A stretch of 64,000 nt of DNA, taken from contig NZ_WMLB01000025.1 in NCBI RefSeq assembly GCF_009709675.1, forward strand, positions 186,001 through 250,000. The letters are read 5' to 3'. Shown piece after piece: positions 38,364 to 47,711 of this stretch; the stretch's first letter is position 1, and each line of letters opens with the position of its first letter. This stretch comes from Agromyces bracchium (lineage in GTDB: Bacteria > Actinomycetota > Actinomycetes > Actinomycetales > Microbacteriaceae). The translations under genes and the position numbers were made by a program. Below the pieces are notes generated by a model. It did no database searches, was not told the origin of the DNA, and saw only the letters and a list, made by a program, of their open reading frames with translations.

Positions 38364-39325
38364 TAGTAGAGCAGCATCGCGAGTCGGCGACGCGCCGCGG
38401 CCACGCGCGGGTCCTCGACGCCGACCACCTGGAACAGCTCGAGCAGACGCTCGCGGACGCGGTTCTTCCCGTCGCCGTCGAGCGTCGGGAAGAGCTCGAG
38501 CAACCGGGCGAACGCGTCGTCGACATGCCCGCCCGAGAGGTCGAGGTCGGCGACGTCGAGCTGCGCATCGAGGTCCGCCGGAGCGGTCGCCGCGCGGTTC
38601 CGGATCTCGTCGAGCGTCTTGCCCTGCAGGCGGCCGAGGAGGTTCGCCTGCGCGAGCCCCGCGACGGCGAGGTCGTCCCGCGGGTCCTGCCCGATCGCCG
38701 TACGGTAGGCGGATGCCGCGGCGTCGTAGTCGCCGCGGCTGATCGCGTCGAACGCCTCCTGGTGCAGGGGCGGAAGCGGCTCCTCGACGGGCTCCTCGGG
38801 CGCACCCTCGACCGCGCCCTCGCCGTCGGCGGCGGGCACGCGCCCGGTCACGCCGTTGCGTTCGGCGACCTCGAGCAGCTGGTCGAACACCTGGTCGATG
38901 ACGTCGTCAGGCTGCACGCCCTGGAAGAGCGGGACCGGCTGGCCGGCGACGAGGGCGACCACCGTCGGGATCGCCTGCGCCTGCAGCGCCTGCACGAGCT
39001 GCGGGCTGCGGTCGGCGTCGGCGGGGGCGAGCACGAGGCGCCCCTCGCGGGCGTTCACGAGTCGCTCGAGCGACGCGACCAGCTGGGTGGACTGCTCGCT
39101 CCACGAGGCCCACAAAGCGAGGACCACCGGCACGGAACGCGACAGCTCGAGCACCTGGCCGAAGCTCTGGTCGTCGACGGCCGCGACGTAGCCGGTCGCG
39201 CCTCCGGCCGCGGGCGTCGCGCCCGGGGCATCCGTCGCCCGACGCTCGTCGCGGTGCACGAGCGAGGACAGGTCGACCGCGCCGCGCAGGCTGGCGGGCT
39301 CGTGGGGCGGGAACGCGTTCGTCAC
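38363..39325 (-). CDS. Thioredoxin-fold/TPR co-chaperone, CnoX (YbbN)-like
   Basis: 320 residues. A thioredoxin-like domain lies at about 45-155, where the redox motif position reads WASWSEQS (72-79), so both cysteines are missing and it cannot be a disulfide reductase. The C-terminal half (about 190-320) has TPR-like helices (HQEAFDAISRGDYDAAASAYRTAI...; HVDDAFARLLELF). The layout matches YbbN/CnoX, a holdase that hands clients to chaperones. The GTG start overlaps the stop of the upstream membrane-protein gene (GTGA). Confidence 0.82.
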   Translation of the reverse strand: MTNAFPPHEPASLRGAVDLSSLVHRDERRATDAPGATPAAGGATGYVAAVDDQSFGQVLELSRSVPVVLALWASWSEQSTQLVASLERLVNAREGRLVLAPADADRSPQLVQALQAQAIPTVVALVAGQPVPLFQGVQPDDVIDQVFDQLLEVAERNGVTGRVPAADGEGAVEGAPEEPVEEPLPPLHQEAFDAISRGDYDAAASAYRTAIGQDPRDDLAVAGLAQANLLGRLQGKTLDEIRNRAATAPADLDAQLDVADLDLSGGHVDDAFARLLELFPTLDGDGKNRVRERLLELFQVVGVEDPRVAAARRRLAMLLY

Positions 39326-41211
39326 TTGACCTCCGATGCGCCGATCAGGGATTCGGACCAGCCCAGCAGCCGGATCTGCTCCTCGGATCCGACCGCGGGC
39401 ACGTAGAACATGAGCTGGATGCCGATGACGCGCTGCACGCCCTTGGCGCTCTTCTCATCGAAGCCGGAGAGCGCGGCGCCGGGCTGGCCCTCCTTGAAGC
39501 CGATGGTGCCGCCGTCGTTCGGCGTGACCTTCTCGGTCTGCGTGATCGAGACCGTCACGAGTGCGCCGGAGTCGTTCGTGGCGAGCGCGACGGTCGGGCT
39601 GTCGCCCGGCTCGTTGGAGAACGCGACGTCGGCGGTGTCGGGAAGGTCGTCGGCGATGGCCTTCTGCCCCTCGACGCCGAGCTGCTGCCGGATGACGTCG
39701 CCCTCGGGGTCGAAGAACTGCGCGAACTCGGACTCGTCGCCCTTCAGCAGCACGTCGGCGTAGGCGGGGGCGACCTGACCGGTCGGCATCACGAGGCCCT
39801 TGAACTCGGGGTTGATCGGCGGAGCGCCGATCGACGCCGGGGCGACCTCGGGCACGTCGGCGTCGGGGACGAGCGCCGTCGCGTACAGGACCTTGTAGTT
39901 CTCGCGCGGGGACTCCTGGCGCAGGACCAGGGCGGTCGGGGCGACCGTCTCGTCGTCGTTGTTCTTCGCGATGGTCAGCACGGTCCGCGGCCATCCGGTC
40001 GCCTGCTGCGGCAGGGTCAGCGTCAGCGGCGCGGCGGGGATCGCGGGAAGCGAGGCCTGGTCGGGCAGCGACTTGCGGATCGCGTAGTTCGCCTTGCGCG
40101 CCTCGTAGGCGGGACCGGTGAACCGCTCCGCGAGCTGCTGCGCATCGGCGGCGGCGTCGACCTCGGTCGTGAAGACCGCGACGCGGCGCATGATGCGCTC
40201 CATCTGGGGCACCGTCACCGCGGGCACGACCGCCGGAGCCTCCGGCTCGGTCGACTCGGCCTCATCGGCTTCCCCCTCGGCCGCGGTCTCGACCGGGGTG
40301 GCCGGGGCCGTCGTCTCGGGCGCCGACGACAGGTCGGGCCAGTAGTCCGAGGAGCACGCCGACAGGGCGATCGCCGGAACCAGGAGCACGGGCAGGAGCG
40401 CGATGCGCTTGGCGCGGCCGGCCGAGCGGCTCGGACCGGTCGAGCCCAGCGCGGCGCGCTGCGACCGAGGCGGGCGGGGTGCGCGCATGAGCTTGCCCTT
40501 CGGACCCTTCGGGAGGTTGCGTCGGGGCCCGCGCGAACGGCGATGCGCCAGGACGCCGGAGATGACGAGGACGATGCCCACGATGAACAGCAGCGCGCCG
40601 CCGGCGATCAGCGGGCCGGCCCACGGCGTGGCGTTGTCGAGCGGCCATGCGACGACGATGCGACCGGGCGCGGGGGCCGTGCCGTCGGACGAGACGAGGA
40701 CCGTGATCCCCTCGGGCACGTCGACCGTGGTCGTGAGGGTGCGGTCGCCGGTGAACTCGTCGAGCCACAGGTCGCTGCCGACCGGCGACGCGGCGGGGTC
40801 GGGCTCCGCCTCGGCGGACTCGGACTCCTCGTCGGCCTGCGGTTCGTCGGTCGCCGGGGTCCCGGGGGTGTTGTCGTCGACGGGCTGCGCCACGACCACC
40901 TCGCTCGTGAGCTCGCCGGCCTCGCCGTCGTAGCCGACCGACACGTACGGGTCCTCGCCGATCCAGCTCAAGACGTCCTCGGTGCGCCCGTAGGCGAGAT
41001 GGACGGGGCCGCCGCCGGAGACCGTGATGGTCTGTTTTCCCGGGTTCGCGGCGAGCGCCTCGGGCGTGAGGACCGTGTAGCTCGCCTGGTTCTCGACCAC
41101 CGCTCCGAGGGAGACCTTGTCGGGCTCGAGGAAGACGGTTCGTTGGGCGATGCCGATGCCGACCAGCACGGCGGCAGCAGCGAACGCCAGAATGGCGAGG
41201 ACGAAGCGCAC
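39322..41211 (-). CDS. Large envelope protein with two membrane helices and an internal lipobox-like segment
   Basis: 629 residues. First helix at 2-20 (FVLAILAFAAAAVLVGIGIA), an outside domain to about 195 with an acidic Glu/Ser/Asp linker, second helix about 199-222 (LLFIVGIVLVISGVLA), then a basic stretch and a third hydrophobic segment ending LSAC at Cys286 like a lipobox. The C-terminal domain (about 330-629) is secreted-like and unrecognised. It looks like a joined membrane protein plus lipoprotein. Start GTG 41211 has GGAGGT seven bases upstream, which rules out the longer ATG start. Confidence 0.78.
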   Translation of the reverse strand: MRFVLAILAFAAAAVLVGIGIAQRTVFLEPDKVSLGAVVENQASYTVLTPEALAANPGKQTITVSGGGPVHLAYGRTEDVLSWIGEDPYVSVGYDGEAGELTSEVVVAQPVDDNTPGTPATDEPQADEESESAEAEPDPAASPVGSDLWLDEFTGDRTLTTTVDVPEGITVLVSSDGTAPAPGRIVVAWPLDNATPWAGPLIAGGALLFIVGIVLVISGVLAHRRSRGPRRNLPKGPKGKLMRAPRPPRSQRAALGSTGPSRSAGRAKRIALLPVLLVPAIALSACSSDYWPDLSSAPETTAPATPVETAAEGEADEAESTEPEAPAVVPAVTVPQMERIMRRVAVFTTEVDAAADAQQLAERFTGPAYEARKANYAIRKSLPDQASLPAIPAAPLTLTLPQQATGWPRTVLTIAKNNDDETVAPTALVLRQESPRENYKVLYATALVPDADVPEVAPASIGAPPINPEFKGLVMPTGQVAPAYADVLLKGDESEFAQFFDPEGDVIRQQLGVEGQKAIADDLPDTADVAFSNEPGDSPTVALATNDSGALVTVSITQTEKVTPNDGGTIGFKEGQPGAALSGFDEKSAKGVQRVIGIQLMFYVPAVGSEEQIRLLGWSESLIGASEVK

Positions 41212-41259
41212 TCGGGTTACCTCCAGGCCGCCCGCGGCGGCATCCGACAAAGACACCCC

Positions 41260-41406: not shown

Positions 41407-43014
41407 TTGGCCGTCGAAGAGACCGAGTTCACGCAGGTGTTCCGCGGATACGACAAGGACGAGGTCGACCGCAGCATCAACCAGCTCCGCCGCGAGATCA
41501 TCTCGGCGAACAATGCGTCGGGTGACGTGCAGAAGGAGAACAAGCGCCTTCACGCTCGCATCGAGGAGCTCACCGCCGAGCTCGAGGAGGTCGGCAGCCC
41601 GACGTTCTCGGGCCTCGGCACGAAGCTCGAGAACACGCTCCGCGTCGCCGAGGAGCAGTCGACGCGCCTGATCGCCCAGGCCGACATCGACGCCGAGAAG
41701 CTCCGTCGCGCGGCCGAGGACGAGGCGCACCTCATGCGCTCCGACGCGCACGAACTCGCCGAGCGCACGCTGAGCGAGGCGCGCGCCCAGGCGAACCGCC
41801 TGCTCGAGAACGCCCGCGCCGAGGCCGACGACATGGTCGCCCGTGCGCACGAGGCGAGCGAGCAGGTCCGCGACGACGCCAACCGCGACGCGGCGACGAT
41901 CCGCGGCACCGCATCGACCGAGGCGGCCGAGGCGCGTGCGACCGCGAAGCGCGAGTCGGCGGCCGTCGTCTCCGAGGCCGAGCGGAAGGCCGCGGAGATG
42001 CTCGTCGCCGCCAACACCGAGGCCAACGAGGCTCGTGCCGCCGCGGCCGGCCTCCAGGAGGAGACCGAGCAGACCCGCGCGGAGGTCGCGGTCGAGCTCG
42101 ACCAGAAGCGCGCCGAGCTCGCCAAGGAGACCGAGCAGGCCCGCATCGACCTCGCCAAGGAGACCGAGCAGGCGCGTCTCGACCTCGAGCGCGAGACCGC
42201 CGAGGCGCGCGCCGCGCTCGACGCCGAGATCGAGGAGCGCCGCGCGGTGCTCGAGCACGAGCTCGAGCAGGCGCGCACCGACCTCGACCGCGAGCTCGAC
42301 GCGGAGCGCGTCAAGCTCGCGCAGGAGCGCGAGCAGGTCTCGGTCGACCTGGAGCGCGAGACGGAGACCGCCCGCCTCAAGCTGCAGCACGAGCTCGACC
42401 GCATCCGTGCCAAGCACGCGGCGGAGCTCGAGCAGATGCGAGCCGACCTCGCCCTCGAGCAGGAGCAGGCGCGCGCCGACTTCGAGGCCGAGGCGGAGCA
42501 GGCCCGCATCGACCTCGACAACCAGCTGACCTCGATGAAGAAGAAGACGACCCACGAGGTCGATCGGATGCGTCGCGAGATCGAGCGTGCGCGCATGGAC
42601 CTCGATGCCGAGCTCGCGACCAAGCGCGACGAGGCCGAGCAGGAGCTGCTCGCCGCGCAGCAGGAGGCCGCCGACCAGACGAAGAAGTTCCTCGACGACT
42701 CCAACGCCGAGCTCGCCGAGGCCGTCGCCCGCACTGCGGAGGCTCGCGCCGAGGCCGAGCGTCTGGAGACCGAGGCTCGGACCGAGATCGCCGACGCTCG
42801 CGACAGGGCCGACGAGGAGGCGCGCGAGCGCGTCGCCGCGGCGCACTCGCAGGCGCGCAAGCTGATCGCCGACGCCGAGGAGCGCACGCGCGCCCTCGTG
42901 GCGGACGCCGAGGACCGCCTCGCCCAGATTAGGATCGAGCGAGACGCGGTCGCGGGCTACTTCGAGAGCCTGCGCGGCGTGCTGACCCAGGCGGAGCAGG
43001 TGGCGAACAAGTAA
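41407..43014 (+). CDS. Long coiled-coil cytoskeletal protein with DivIVA-like N-terminus (Scy/FilP-like)
   Basis: 535 residues. The N-terminus TEFTQVFRGYDKDEVDRSINQLRREI resembles the membrane/pole-binding head of DivIVA. Almost all the rest is predicted helix, with no Pro between about 66 and 535. Residues 216-414 follow an 11-residue (hendecad) pattern, with a hydrophobic residue at nearly every eleventh position. This recalls actinobacterial Scy, FilP and DivIVA scaffold proteins that organise polar growth, but the exact group is uncertain. The start is TTG 41407, six bases after GGAGG; there is no ATG nearby. Confidence 0.85.
   Translation: MAVEETEFTQVFRGYDKDEVDRSINQLRREIISANNASGDVQKENKRLHARIEELTAELEEVGSPTFSGLGTKLENTLRVAEEQSTRLIAQADIDAEKLRRAAEDEAHLMRSDAHELAERTLSEARAQANRLLENARAEADDMVARAHEASEQVRDDANRDAATIRGTASTEAAEARATAKRESAAVVSEAERKAAEMLVAANTEANEARAAAAGLQEETEQTRAEVAVELDQKRAELAKETEQARIDLAKETEQARLDLERETAEARAALDAEIEERRAVLEHELEQARTDLDRELDAERVKLAQEREQVSVDLERETETARLKLQHELDRIRAKHAAELEQMRADLALEQEQARADFEAEAEQARIDLDNQLTSMKKKTTHEVDRMRREIERARMDLDAELATKRDEAEQELLAAQQEAADQTKKFLDDSNAELAEAVARTAEARAEAERLETEARTEIADARDRADEEARERVAAAHSQARKLIADAEERTRALVADAEDRLAQIRIERDAVAGYFESLRGVLTQAEQVANK
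42052..42648 (+). repeat. Hendecad (33-bp) repeat region inside the coiled-coil gene
   Basis: Hydrophobic residues fall at 216, 227, 238, 249, 260, 271, 282, 293, 304, 315, 326, 348, 359, 370, 392, 403 and 414; only 337 (His) and 381 (Thr) break the series. The best-preserved DNA copies are the 33-bp tandem units 42118-42150 and 42151-42183, encoding LAKETEQARID and LAKETEQARLD. Confidence 0.85.
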
Positions 43015-43037: not shown

Positions 43038-44102
43038 TTGAAGATCCAGAACGCGTTCCGCATCGCGCTCGTCGGCACGCTCGGCGTCGGAACCGGACTC
43101 CTGATCCTGTCCGCCGTCTCGAGCCTGTCGACGATCCTCACCTACATCGGAGCAGCACTGTTCCTGGCCCTCGGCCTCGAGCCCGCCGTCAGCGGGCTCG
43201 AGCGCCGAGGGCTTCCGCGTTGGGGCGCCATCCTGCTCGTCATCGCGGGGGTCGCGGCGGTCGTCGCCGCCCTCCTCATCGCGGTGATCCCGATCATCGT
43301 CGACCAGGTCGCCGACCTGATCGCCCAGATCCCGGGGATCGTCGCGCAGATCAACCGCGTCGACTGGATCGCGTGGCTCCAGGAGCAGTTCCCGCTGCTC
43401 CTCATCGAGGAGATCAGCCAGCAGGCGGGGGCGGCGCTCACCGACTTCTTCACCAACCCGAACCGGCTGAGCGAACTCCTGGGCGGCGTGTGGGCGGTCG
43501 CGATCGCGATCGGCGGAGGAGTGTTCGCGGTGATCGTGGTCGCGGTCCTCACGATCTACTTCACGGCGTCGCTCGACGCGATGAAGCGGGCCACCTACCA
43601 GCTCATCCCGGCGTCGCGTCGCGCACGCTTCGCCGACCTGACGGAGCAGATCACGCAGTCCGTCGGCCGCTACGTCATCGGCCAGGTCTCGCTCGCGGCC
43701 GTCAACGGCTTCCTGAGCTTCACGTTCCTCTCGATCATCCAGGCGCCGTTCCCCGCCGTGCTCGCCTTCATCGCGTTCCTGTTCTCGCTCGTCCCGCTCG
43801 TGGGCACGCTCACGGGTTCCGTGATCATCGTGCTGCTCTGCCTCATCCCGGGCCTCGGGTCGCCGCTCACCGCGCTCGTGGCGGCGATCTACTACCTGAT
43901 CTACATGCAGGTCGAGGCGTACGTGCTCTCGCCGCGCATCATGAGTCGCGCGGTCAAGGTGCCCGGGGCCCTCGTGGTCGTCGCGGCGCTCGCCGGCGGC
44001 GCGTTGCTCGGCATCCTCGGGGCGCTCGTCGCGATCCCGATCGCCGCGGCCATCCTCCTCATCATCAAGCAGGTCGTCATCCCGCGCCAGAACGAGCGCT
44101 GA
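43038..44102 (+). CDS. AI-2E transporter family permease (PerM-like)
   Basis: 354 residues with about seven to eight membrane helices and a soluble loop between helices 2 and 3 (DQVADLIAQIPGIVAQINR...). The family signature near the C-terminus is clear: FLFSLVPLVGTLTGSVI and MQVEAYVLSPRIMSRAVKVP. Some members move autoinducer-2, others act as Na+/H+ antiporters; the substrate here is unknown. TTG 43038 has GCGGGG just upstream. It starts 23 bases after the coiled-coil gene, so the two are probably one operon. Confidence 0.9.
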   Translation: MKIQNAFRIALVGTLGVGTGLLILSAVSSLSTILTYIGAALFLALGLEPAVSGLERRGLPRWGAILLVIAGVAAVVAALLIAVIPIIVDQVADLIAQIPGIVAQINRVDWIAWLQEQFPLLLIEEISQQAGAALTDFFTNPNRLSELLGGVWAVAIAIGGGVFAVIVVAVLTIYFTASLDAMKRATYQLIPASRRARFADLTEQITQSVGRYVIGQVSLAAVNGFLSFTFLSIIQAPFPAVLAFIAFLFSLVPLVGTLTGSVIIVLLCLIPGLGSPLTALVAAIYYLIYMQVEAYVLSPRIMSRAVKVPGALVVVAALAGGALLGILGALVAIPIAAAILLIIKQVVIPRQNER

Positions 44103-46131: not shown

Positions 46132-46686
46132 TCACCGGACCGCGAGCATCACGTCGACGACGGCATCGAGGACGAGGTCGACCTGCGCCTCGCGGTACCC
46201 GCCGCGCTGCGGCGAGAACACGACGCCCCGGACGTCGTCGATCGCGACCGGCCATCCGTCGCGGAAGTACCGCGTGAGTCGGTCGGCGAACGCATCGACC
46301 TCGTGCACGTCGTACCCGAGGGCGAGCCAGCTCACGCGCTCGAAACGAGCGCCCTCGGGCCGCGCGAGACGGTTCGCGACCACCTGCGCCGTCGTGCGGG
46401 CCTCGGCGAGCCACGCCTCGTCGCCGTGCAGCCGGGAGGCGATCTGCCGCTCCCGGAACGCGAAGGCGTCCTCCAGTCGCTCCATGGCCGCGTCGACGTG
46501 GGAGGTCGAGTAGCCGCCCTTCTGCATCGAGAACGCGGTCAGTCGGATCCGCTCGGCGTCGAGGCCCTGGTCTTCGGGGTCGGGGCGGCCGTCGTACGCG
46601 CGACGGGCACGCTGGAGGAAGTCCTCGACCTCGGCGGTCTTGTAGCCCAGCTGGTTCCTGCGGGCCCGGGGGAACGTGGCATCCAC
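46132..46686 (-). CDS. Protein built of four DivIVA-like motifs
   Basis: 184 residues. Four copies of a short motif of the DivIVA N-terminal type (F..x.GY....VD.fl..) are centred on Tyr15, Tyr59, Tyr125 and Tyr164: FPRARRNQLGYKTAEVEDFL, FSMQKGGYSTSHVDAAM, LALGYDVHEVDAF and FSPQRGGYREAQVDLVL. It looks like two tandem pairs without a long coiled coil. A membrane-curvature or division role is inferred. GTG 46686 follows GATACT by six bases. Confidence 0.8.
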   Translation of the reverse strand: MDATFPRARRNQLGYKTAEVEDFLQRARRAYDGRPDPEDQGLDAERIRLTAFSMQKGGYSTSHVDAAMERLEDAFAFRERQIASRLHGDEAWLAEARTTAQVVANRLARPEGARFERVSWLALGYDVHEVDAFADRLTRYFRDGWPVAIDDVRGVVFSPQRGGYREAQVDLVLDAVVDVMLAVR

Positions 46687-46692
46687 CGCACC

Positions 46693-46698
46693 AGTATC
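46693..46698 (-). promoter_or_regulatory. -10 box (GATACT), leaderless start for the four-motif protein
   Basis: GATACT on the minus strand, six bases before GTG 46686; a weaker match than the others. Confidence 0.35.
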
Positions 46699-46727
46699 GC
46701 GCACGCGCGACGGTTCCTCGCGCACGG

Positions 46728-47711
46728 TCACGAGAAGATCTGGAACGCGGCGAACGCGACGGCCGCCGACGGGAGGATCGAGTCGAGCCGGTCGAGGAAG
46801 CCCCCGTGCCCCGGCAGCCACGAACTCATGTCCTTGATGCCGAGGTCTCGCTTGATGAGCGACTCGGCGAGGTCTCCGAGGGTCGCCGAGAGGAAGATGG
46901 CGGCGCCGAACACCAGGCCGAACCACCACGGCTGCCCGAGCATGAACAGCGCGAGCAGGACGCCCGCGAGCAGGCTCGCGAGCGCGCCGCCCGCGAATCC
47001 CTCCCAGGTCTTCTTCGGGCTGATGACGGGCGCCATCGGGTGCCGGCCGAACGCCAGGCCCGATGCGTACGCCCCCGTGTCCGCCGCGACCGCGGTGATG
47101 ATGAACGCCAGCGTCCACCACTGGCCGCCGTCGGCGGCCGTGAGCACCACCGCGAACGTGGCGAGGAAGGTGACGTAGCCCTGCACGAACACGCCGGCCC
47201 CGAGGTCGCGCACGAGGCTCGAGGTCTCGGCGCGGACTGAGGCGGAGGCCTGCTCGGCGAGCCGCCAGACCACCACGAGCGCCATCCCGCCGAGGACCCC
47301 GACGAGCTGCCCGGCCGGCCCGCCGTAGTACGCCACCGGTACGGCGACGACCGCCGCGATCACGGTCGGGATGCGCGGCACCCGGTATCCGCCGTGCTTC
47401 AGCGCCGCCGCGAGCTCGGAGCTGGAGAACCCGGCCACGACGACCGCGAACACCATGAACAGCTCCTTGAACACCAGGAGGCTGAGGAGCAGGGTGCCGC
47501 CGAACGCCAGGCCGATCAGGATGGCGAGGAGGAGGTTCCGACCGGTTCGCGCGTTGATGCGCTCCTGGGCTTCGTCGAACTGCGCGCGGGATGCCTCGAA
47601 CTGGCGCTCGAGGTCCACGCGCCGCGCGTGCATCTGCGCGCGGAGCTCGTCGCGCGTCGAATGCCGCTGGTCGTCGGCGTCCGACCGTTCCCCATCAGGG
47701 ACGCCCGTCAT
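46728..47711 (-). CDS. cdsA: Phosphatidate cytidylyltransferase
   Basis: 327 residues. It makes CDP-diacylglycerol from phosphatidate and CTP at the membrane. The family signature SLIKRDLGIKDMSSWLPGHGGFLDRLDS is at the C-terminus. About eight helices follow an N-terminal cytoplasmic extension of about 60 residues with a short coiled coil (RDELRAQMHARRVDLERQFEASRAQFDEAQERI), longer than in E. coli. It is 12 bases downstream of frr in the rpsB-tsf-pyrH-frr-cdsA block. Confidence 0.95.
   Translation of the reverse strand: MTGVPDGERSDADDQRHSTRDELRAQMHARRVDLERQFEASRAQFDEAQERINARTGRNLLLAILIGLAFGGTLLLSLLVFKELFMVFAVVVAGFSSSELAAALKHGGYRVPRIPTVIAAVVAVPVAYYGGPAGQLVGVLGGMALVVVWRLAEQASASVRAETSSLVRDLGAGVFVQGYVTFLATFAVVLTAADGGQWWTLAFIITAVAADTGAYASGLAFGRHPMAPVISPKKTWEGFAGGALASLLAGVLLALFMLGQPWWFGLVFGAAIFLSATLGDLAESLIKRDLGIKDMSSWLPGHGGFLDRLDSILPSAAVAFAAFQIFS

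Follow-up and report, generated by a model that had tools for sequence, protein, structure and literature searches.

Rod length in a FilP-type protein of Agromyces and its relatives changes mostly by whole hendecads, probably under selection for register

The 64,000-nt window of Agromyces bracchium DNA analysed here (contig NZ_WMLB01000025.1, positions 186,001 to 250,000) encodes a coiled-coil protein whose relatives in the Microbacteriaceae have changed rod length many times while almost always keeping the 11-residue helical register. We consider it likely that this is a FilP-type rod whose length is altered in whole hendecads under selection for register and which assembles near the cell poles. 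Length variation and hendecads are both already known in the FilP/Scy group; what seems new here is that the rod evolves by whole hendecads.

The window protein is 98% and 97% identical to its counterparts in A. luteolus and A. kandeliae, and an alignment of 29 proteins from at least five genera (52–97% identity) has 535 columns, with none added to the window protein. The gene, its parts and its downstream neighbour are as follows (positions are those of the window).

41407..43014, + strand: whole gene for the 535-residue protein, assigned to the FilP group from a DivIVA Pfam match over the cut-off and from the FilP matches of its residues 1–80 profile; TTG start behind GGAGGA, stop included
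41407..41592, + strand: DivIVA-like head, residues 1–62, with the RGYD motif (FRGYDKDEVD) and the first coil (predicted helix 17–62); Pfam PF05103 matches residues 3–124
41593..41631, + strand: linker and second conserved motif SPTFSGLGTKLE, residues 63–75; of the 285 loci measured, 278 have 55 residues from GY to GLG
41620..42051, + strand: block 1, residues 72–215, a hendecad coil of fixed length with an Ala core
42052..42579, + strand: block 2, residues 216–391, 16 hendecads with a mostly Leu core and E/R flanks; the length variation of the rod in relatives is located here
42580..42711, + strand: end of the array, residues 392–435, where the E/R pattern is gone; residues 381–435 keep an 11/3 power of 4.5 (55 of 5,000 shuffles)
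42712..43011, + strand: C-terminal coil, residues 436–535, with the conserved motif IERDAVAGYFESLRGVL; predicted helix 385–534
43038..44102, + strand: gene for an AI-2E family transporter (Pfam, 182.8 bits), 23 nt downstream on the same strand

The original prediction concerned positions 42052–42648, which are exactly residues 216–414 of the protein, and placed hydrophobic residues at 17 of 19 positions spaced 11 residues apart. That count is correct: positions 216+11k read LVLLLLLLLLLHLFLTILL, and none of 20,000 composition shuffles matches it in any of the 11 phases. The consensus proposed with it, acidic at columns +3, +5 and +10 from the hydrophobic column and basic at +8, is matched as well (acidic in 15 of 18 at +3 and at +5 and in 12 of 18 at +10, basic in 15 of 18 at +8), but the E/R pattern extends no further than residue 391, and in residues 392–414 the hydrophobic column alone remains. 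Periodicity was assessed as the Fourier power of hydrophobic residues (LIVMFYW, optionally with Ala) against 5,000 shuffles. For residues 216–414, the LIVMFYW power is 12.5 at the hendecad period of 11/3 (0 of 5,000 shuffles) and 0.0 at the heptad period of 7/2 (4,778 of 5,000), confirming the hendecad reading; with Ala counted as hydrophobic, the 11/3 power is weaker at 5.3 (25 of 5,000). The hendecads extend beyond this segment into block 1, where the 11/3 power is 14.6 with Ala (0 of 5,000) and 4.5 without it (48 of 5,000). Heptad dominance, named beforehand as the observation that would speak against the hendecad, is absent by Fourier power from residues 72–435, and neither period stands out in residues 436–535.

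Rod length across relatives was measured from the GLG of the linker to a tyrosine motif near the C-terminus; the start was moved from GY to GLG since a few proteins have a head coil longer by 7 residues (GY to GLG 62 residues, one heptad more, in 7 of 285 loci). Since the loci include repeats (L001, L047 and L048 are the same gene, and some species occur in both collections), distinct lengths and a tree serve as the basis of the analysis. Thirty of 316 loci lie outside the length count, mostly those with no recognisable linker or C-terminal motif; excluded loci include L046 (a Wag31-like gene), L085 (an internal TAG, reflecting either an error or a broken gene) and several cut by contig or locus ends (e.g. 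L142, L180, L233 and L244), while L257, L299 and L301, which are 0 or 7 mod 11 by an earlier pattern, are outside the final count.

The 243 Microbacteriaceae loci carry 67 distinct rod lengths, from 275 to 1012 residues, and 64 of the 67 fall into two register classes, 42 being 0 and 22 being 7 mod 11. The off-class rods have 446 and 501 residues (both 6 mod 11) and 477 residues (4 mod 11). Among moduli from 3 to 24, none but 11 and 22 shows comparable clustering of these lengths. The 43 loci from other families of the order have 19 lengths, which fall mod 11 into class 4 (11 lengths), class 6 (four), class 3 (three) and class 8 (one); here classes 3 and 6 stem from one genus, represented by L277–L284, with rods of 740–1073 residues. 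Divergent genes lacking GLG, measured from GY, give 0 mod 11 for lengths of 374, 330 and 473 residues, 6 for 325 and 325, and 8 for 327. Rod length is identical in the 25 loci L001–L025 of the window's own genus, so the variation lies between genera and within other genera.

Comparison of congeners shows where the steps fall. In pairs above 55% identity (L049–L148), 243 of 260 gaps are multiples of 11, the pairs not being independent and gap placement within repeats being arbitrary. One 7-residue gap marks a change from one register class to the other within a single genus. In the listed pairs above 60% identity from the same loci, gaps first appear some 160 residues or further past the linker, which places them in the array. 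Block 1 is by comparison invariant, the distance from GLG to the IRG marker being 96 residues in all 208 loci, out of 243, in which the marker was found.

A quick maximum-likelihood tree was built from the conserved columns of 141 proteins (136 from Microbacteriaceae, with 14 chosen proteins representing all those of rod length 447); 45 of its 138 inner branches are weak and several are long. With the fewest changes on this tree, rod length in the 136 family proteins has changed at least 87 times and register 6 times. As an internal control, the tail between the C-terminal motif and the stop (median 22 residues, against a median rod of 511) was traced on the same tree, where it requires at least 52 changes of length and 46 of register (135 rows), although this is not a clean rate test, tails being under weaker constraint and also shifted by stop-codon changes. 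The 36 distinct tail lengths are spread over all 11 classes mod 11. Length changes of any size arise in the gene, and nearly all of those surviving in the rod keep register. As the tail changes register freely while the rod rarely does, these data suggest strong selection on the helical register of the rod.

Head sequence and register are paired in the Microbacteriaceae: heads reading F-RG[YF] have class 7 rods in 152 of 153 loci and other heads class 0 rods in 86 of 90. The head letter (F versus others) changes once on the tree, and the pairing may therefore reflect shared descent. A second copy in one genome of the window's genus (L112), 38% identical, keeps the rod length of 447 residues. 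At E 0.001 the protein has no match in 69 of the 398 genomes of the family, and one genus (g100) gives only weak matches or none, indicating that the protein is either lost or very divergent there.

Could mutation alone produce whole-unit lengths, with 33-nt repeats recombining and no selection on register needed? Block 2 DNA is self-similar at 33, 66 and 99 nt (identity 0.53, versus 0.34 at other in-frame offsets), and its longest exact repeat is 16 nt versus a median of 10 nt. Nine inserted pieces in eight close pairs find their best match elsewhere in the same gene (0.66–0.94), always displaced by a whole number of 33-nt units. Judged from these sequences, unequal exchange of 33-nt units is the likely mutational route, and it accounts for part of the whole-unit pattern without selection. 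As the full explanation we find it rather unlikely, though worth weighing, since indels of other sizes do occur in the gene, register has changed at least 46 times in the tail against 6 times in a far longer rod, and the length of block 1 is unchanged wherever its marker was found. We therefore retain selection for register acting on whole-hendecad steps as the preferred reading.

The composition of the array in relatives bears on how such a rod might pair. Across 4,946 block 2 units from 209 distinct sequences, column 0 is L, I, V, M or F in 0.88 of units (the column itself having been picked as the richest), column +3 is acidic in 0.82 and column +8 basic in 0.76, and in 199 of the 209 sequences the hydrophobic column has phase 4 when counted from the linker. 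On an 11/3 helix, columns 0, +3 and +8 lie at 0, –65 and +65 degrees, so that column 0 by geometry faces the coil axis and the acidic and basic columns flank it on opposite sides; columns 0, +4 and +7 make up a narrow hydrophobic face. Neighbouring chains with one acidic and one basic flank would attract each other in a parallel coil and repel each other in an antiparallel one.

An 11-residue array might also form an amphipathic helix lying on a membrane, as in apolipoproteins and synuclein, rather than a coiled coil, and the Pfam Apolipoprotein model does match residues 278–440 (E 1.4e-8). The score of 35.1 bits is nevertheless under the cut-off of 90. In membrane helices of this kind, basic residues tend to sit on both flanks. 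The narrow hydrophobic face of the array lies instead between an acidic and a basic flank, the pattern of a parallel coil, and the head is of the dimerising type (PMC9858780); together these make a membrane helix very improbable and leave the coiled-coil rod as the reading we adopt.

The oligomeric state is less certain. A small residue at the axis-facing position has been argued to be necessary for hendecad dimers (PMC9858780); this position is Ala in 0.78 of cases in block 1 and Leu in 0.69 in block 2. We are accordingly unsure of a plain dimer in block 2, where Leu faces the axis in place of the Ala considered suitable for hendecad dimers, and this Leu may allow a higher oligomer there. The expectation of a continuous 199-residue rod was not clearly borne out by an AlphaFold2 monomer model (29-row alignment, mean pLDDT 78.5, pTM 0.39). 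Its helices span residues 17–62, 68–216, 230–373 and 385–534, leaving residues 1–16, 63–67, 217–229, 374–384 and the last residue non-helical, so that the predicted rod is broken at 217–229 and 374–384, both breaks being of low confidence. A coiled coil modelled as a monomer may fold back on itself, so these breaks are no firm refutation of the rod. No relative was found among solved structures at E 0.01.

The DivIVA-like head that had been proposed is supported by the Pfam DivIVA model at 37.6 bits (cut-off 28). The FilP family is defined by two conserved motifs bordering the first two coils, whatever the coil length (Bagchi et al. 2008, PMC2680258), and both are present: RGYDxxEVD before the dimerising coil, as FRGYDKDEVD at residues 12–21, and SPTFSGLGTKLE at the start of the second coil. 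In a set of 29 sequences, a profile of residues 1–80 built from relatives matches 8 of 8 FilP proteins over its positions 8–79 (E 1.4e-8 to 3e-8) and none of 13 Scy proteins; in the protein's own genome it reaches a Wag31-like protein at E 0.023 and a PolyDIV-type protein at E 0.36. These motifs and profiles place the protein in the FilP group of the DivIVA-like superfamily. Profiles of the remaining parts give no preference for FilP over Scy: among the matches listed, Scy, which is four times longer, scores above FilP with block 1 (e.g. 2.8e-26 versus 3.5e-7) and is also matched by the C-terminal profile (4.5e-8), as would be expected of long hendecad proteins. An extended hendecad rod with an Ala-rich core, a trait of FilP and Scy, is found in block 1, while block 2 is hendecad but mostly Leu-core.

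Scy and FilP had been invoked in the original prediction as a comparison for unusual coil periodicities. The protein in fact belongs to that group, and the group's long hendecad rods are published, with lengths from under 200 to over 1000 residues (Martinez-Goikoetxea and Lupas, PMC9858780). A hendecad rod alone thus makes the protein an ordinary member of a known group.

Assignments to Scy (NCBIfam model NF041483, 21.5 bits, cut-off 1040), to DivIVA/Wag31 (NCBIfam Wag31 model, 42.3 bits, cut-off 260) and to PolyDIV, which has 2 to 8 DivIVA-like domains per chain (here one match over the cut-off, the second in the frame scoring 14.7 bits against 28), were tried and rejected. The one other DivIVA Pfam match over the cut-off in this genome lies in a 226-aa open frame on contig 11 (C11:143915-144085) and, at 50.4 bits, scores higher than the window gene; we take it for Wag31 from its head and size. 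That the window protein is itself the polar scaffold DivIVA/Wag31 with an unusually long rod is extremely improbable, for although its head passes the Pfam cut-off and the Wag31 model does match, that match is below the model's cut-off, the better-scoring contig 11 gene is separate, and the family profile favours FilP.

An AI-2E transporter relative accompanies the gene at 79 of 79 named loci; in 75 of these it was counted as lying downstream in the same orientation. Neighbours identified among the open reading frames scanned are GlgB, a thioredoxin/TPR protein, a lipoprotein, the AI-2E transporter, a hydrolase and a PolyDIV-type protein; in some FilP/Scy clusters, the gene lies near methylmalonyl-CoA epimerase or crotonyl-CoA reductase. 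The divergent neighbour (39322–41256, – strand) is weakly like the SCO2278 lipoprotein family over residues 342–640 (57.3 bits, cut-off 210). About 3.1 kb from the rod gene, an open frame at 46132–47121 (– strand) matches TIGR03543, a DivIVA-repeat protein of PolyDIV type, at 196 bits (cut-off 154.2) over its residues 150–328, the gene probably being shorter than the frame; the Pfam DivIVA model is below its cut-off there (24 versus 28 bits). Near it lie a cdsA-like frame (97.4 bits, cut-off 385), ribosome recycling factor, an amino-acid-kinase-family gene (pyrH by position) and ribosomal protein S2.

In the model we propose, the DivIVA-like head would, as in its family, dimerise the chains, and beyond it these would lie parallel as a hendecad coil with almost no supercoiling. 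The sequence orders the rod as a fixed Ala-core stretch, a Leu-core array with E on one flank and R on the other, and a conserved C-terminal coil. Within the family, the array would act as an adjustable spacer in which 33-nt units are gained and lost, and nearly only whole hendecads would survive because other steps would interrupt the hydrophobic seam or put the head out of register with the C-terminal motif. Streptomyces FilP forms striated filaments in vitro and is located near hyphal tips (Javadi et al. 2019, PMC6599971); from its place in this family, the Agromyces protein probably builds a cytoskeletal mesh at the poles, most likely assembling into FilP-like filaments or a meshwork near growing poles. 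A more tentative extension, possible but less likely than the model itself, is that the array is a register-locked ruler, spacing the head from a C-terminal docking motif in hendecad steps of about 1.6 nm, with the E/R seam and the axis-facing Leu zipping parallel rods into a higher-order coil (e.g. two dimers into a tetramer) and each lineage having its own filament pitch.

At least 87 changes of length against 6 of register amount to a natural experiment on the limits of a bacterial intermediate-filament-like rod. A register lock predicts that steps of ±11 residues are tolerated and steps of ±4 or 5 are not, and rod length could be linked to filament spacing lineage by lineage. Our search of published work, which took in a minority of subscription papers, recognised no paper stating whole-hendecad length steps in the FilP family. 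Walshaw et al. reportedly studied coiled-coil repeats in Streptomyces proteins in 2010.

The window protein shares with FilP the motif pair opening the first two coils, the DivIVA-like head, a long coiled rod and a C-terminal motif found by the same pattern. The FilP rod is 202 residues long, 4 mod 11, in 8 of 8 measured (their source genomes being assigned to Streptomyces on the strength of a Scy model match above the cut-off), whereas that of the window protein is about twice as long and contains the Leu-core E/R hendecad array that is length-variable in the family. In the Scy frames inspected, the strongest self-similarity has a period of 11 and block 1 resembles the Scy repeats, but the window protein is far shorter and its head profile matches none of the 13 Scy proteins. 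The head domain is common to DivIVA/Wag31, although the family profile reaches the genome's own Wag31-like protein only at E 0.023, and a DivIVA-like motif is common to PolyDIV, of which the window protein has one head copy rather than 2 to 8. The closest parallel to the length steps is in the linkers of phytochrome-diguanylate cyclases (PadCs), where coiled-coil lengths also differ by whole repeats, 54% of PadCs being divisible by 7 and 38% at –4 (PMC9587094). Those linkers are heptad signalling elements of about 28 residues, whereas the family described here builds its rods of 275–1012 residues from hendecads.
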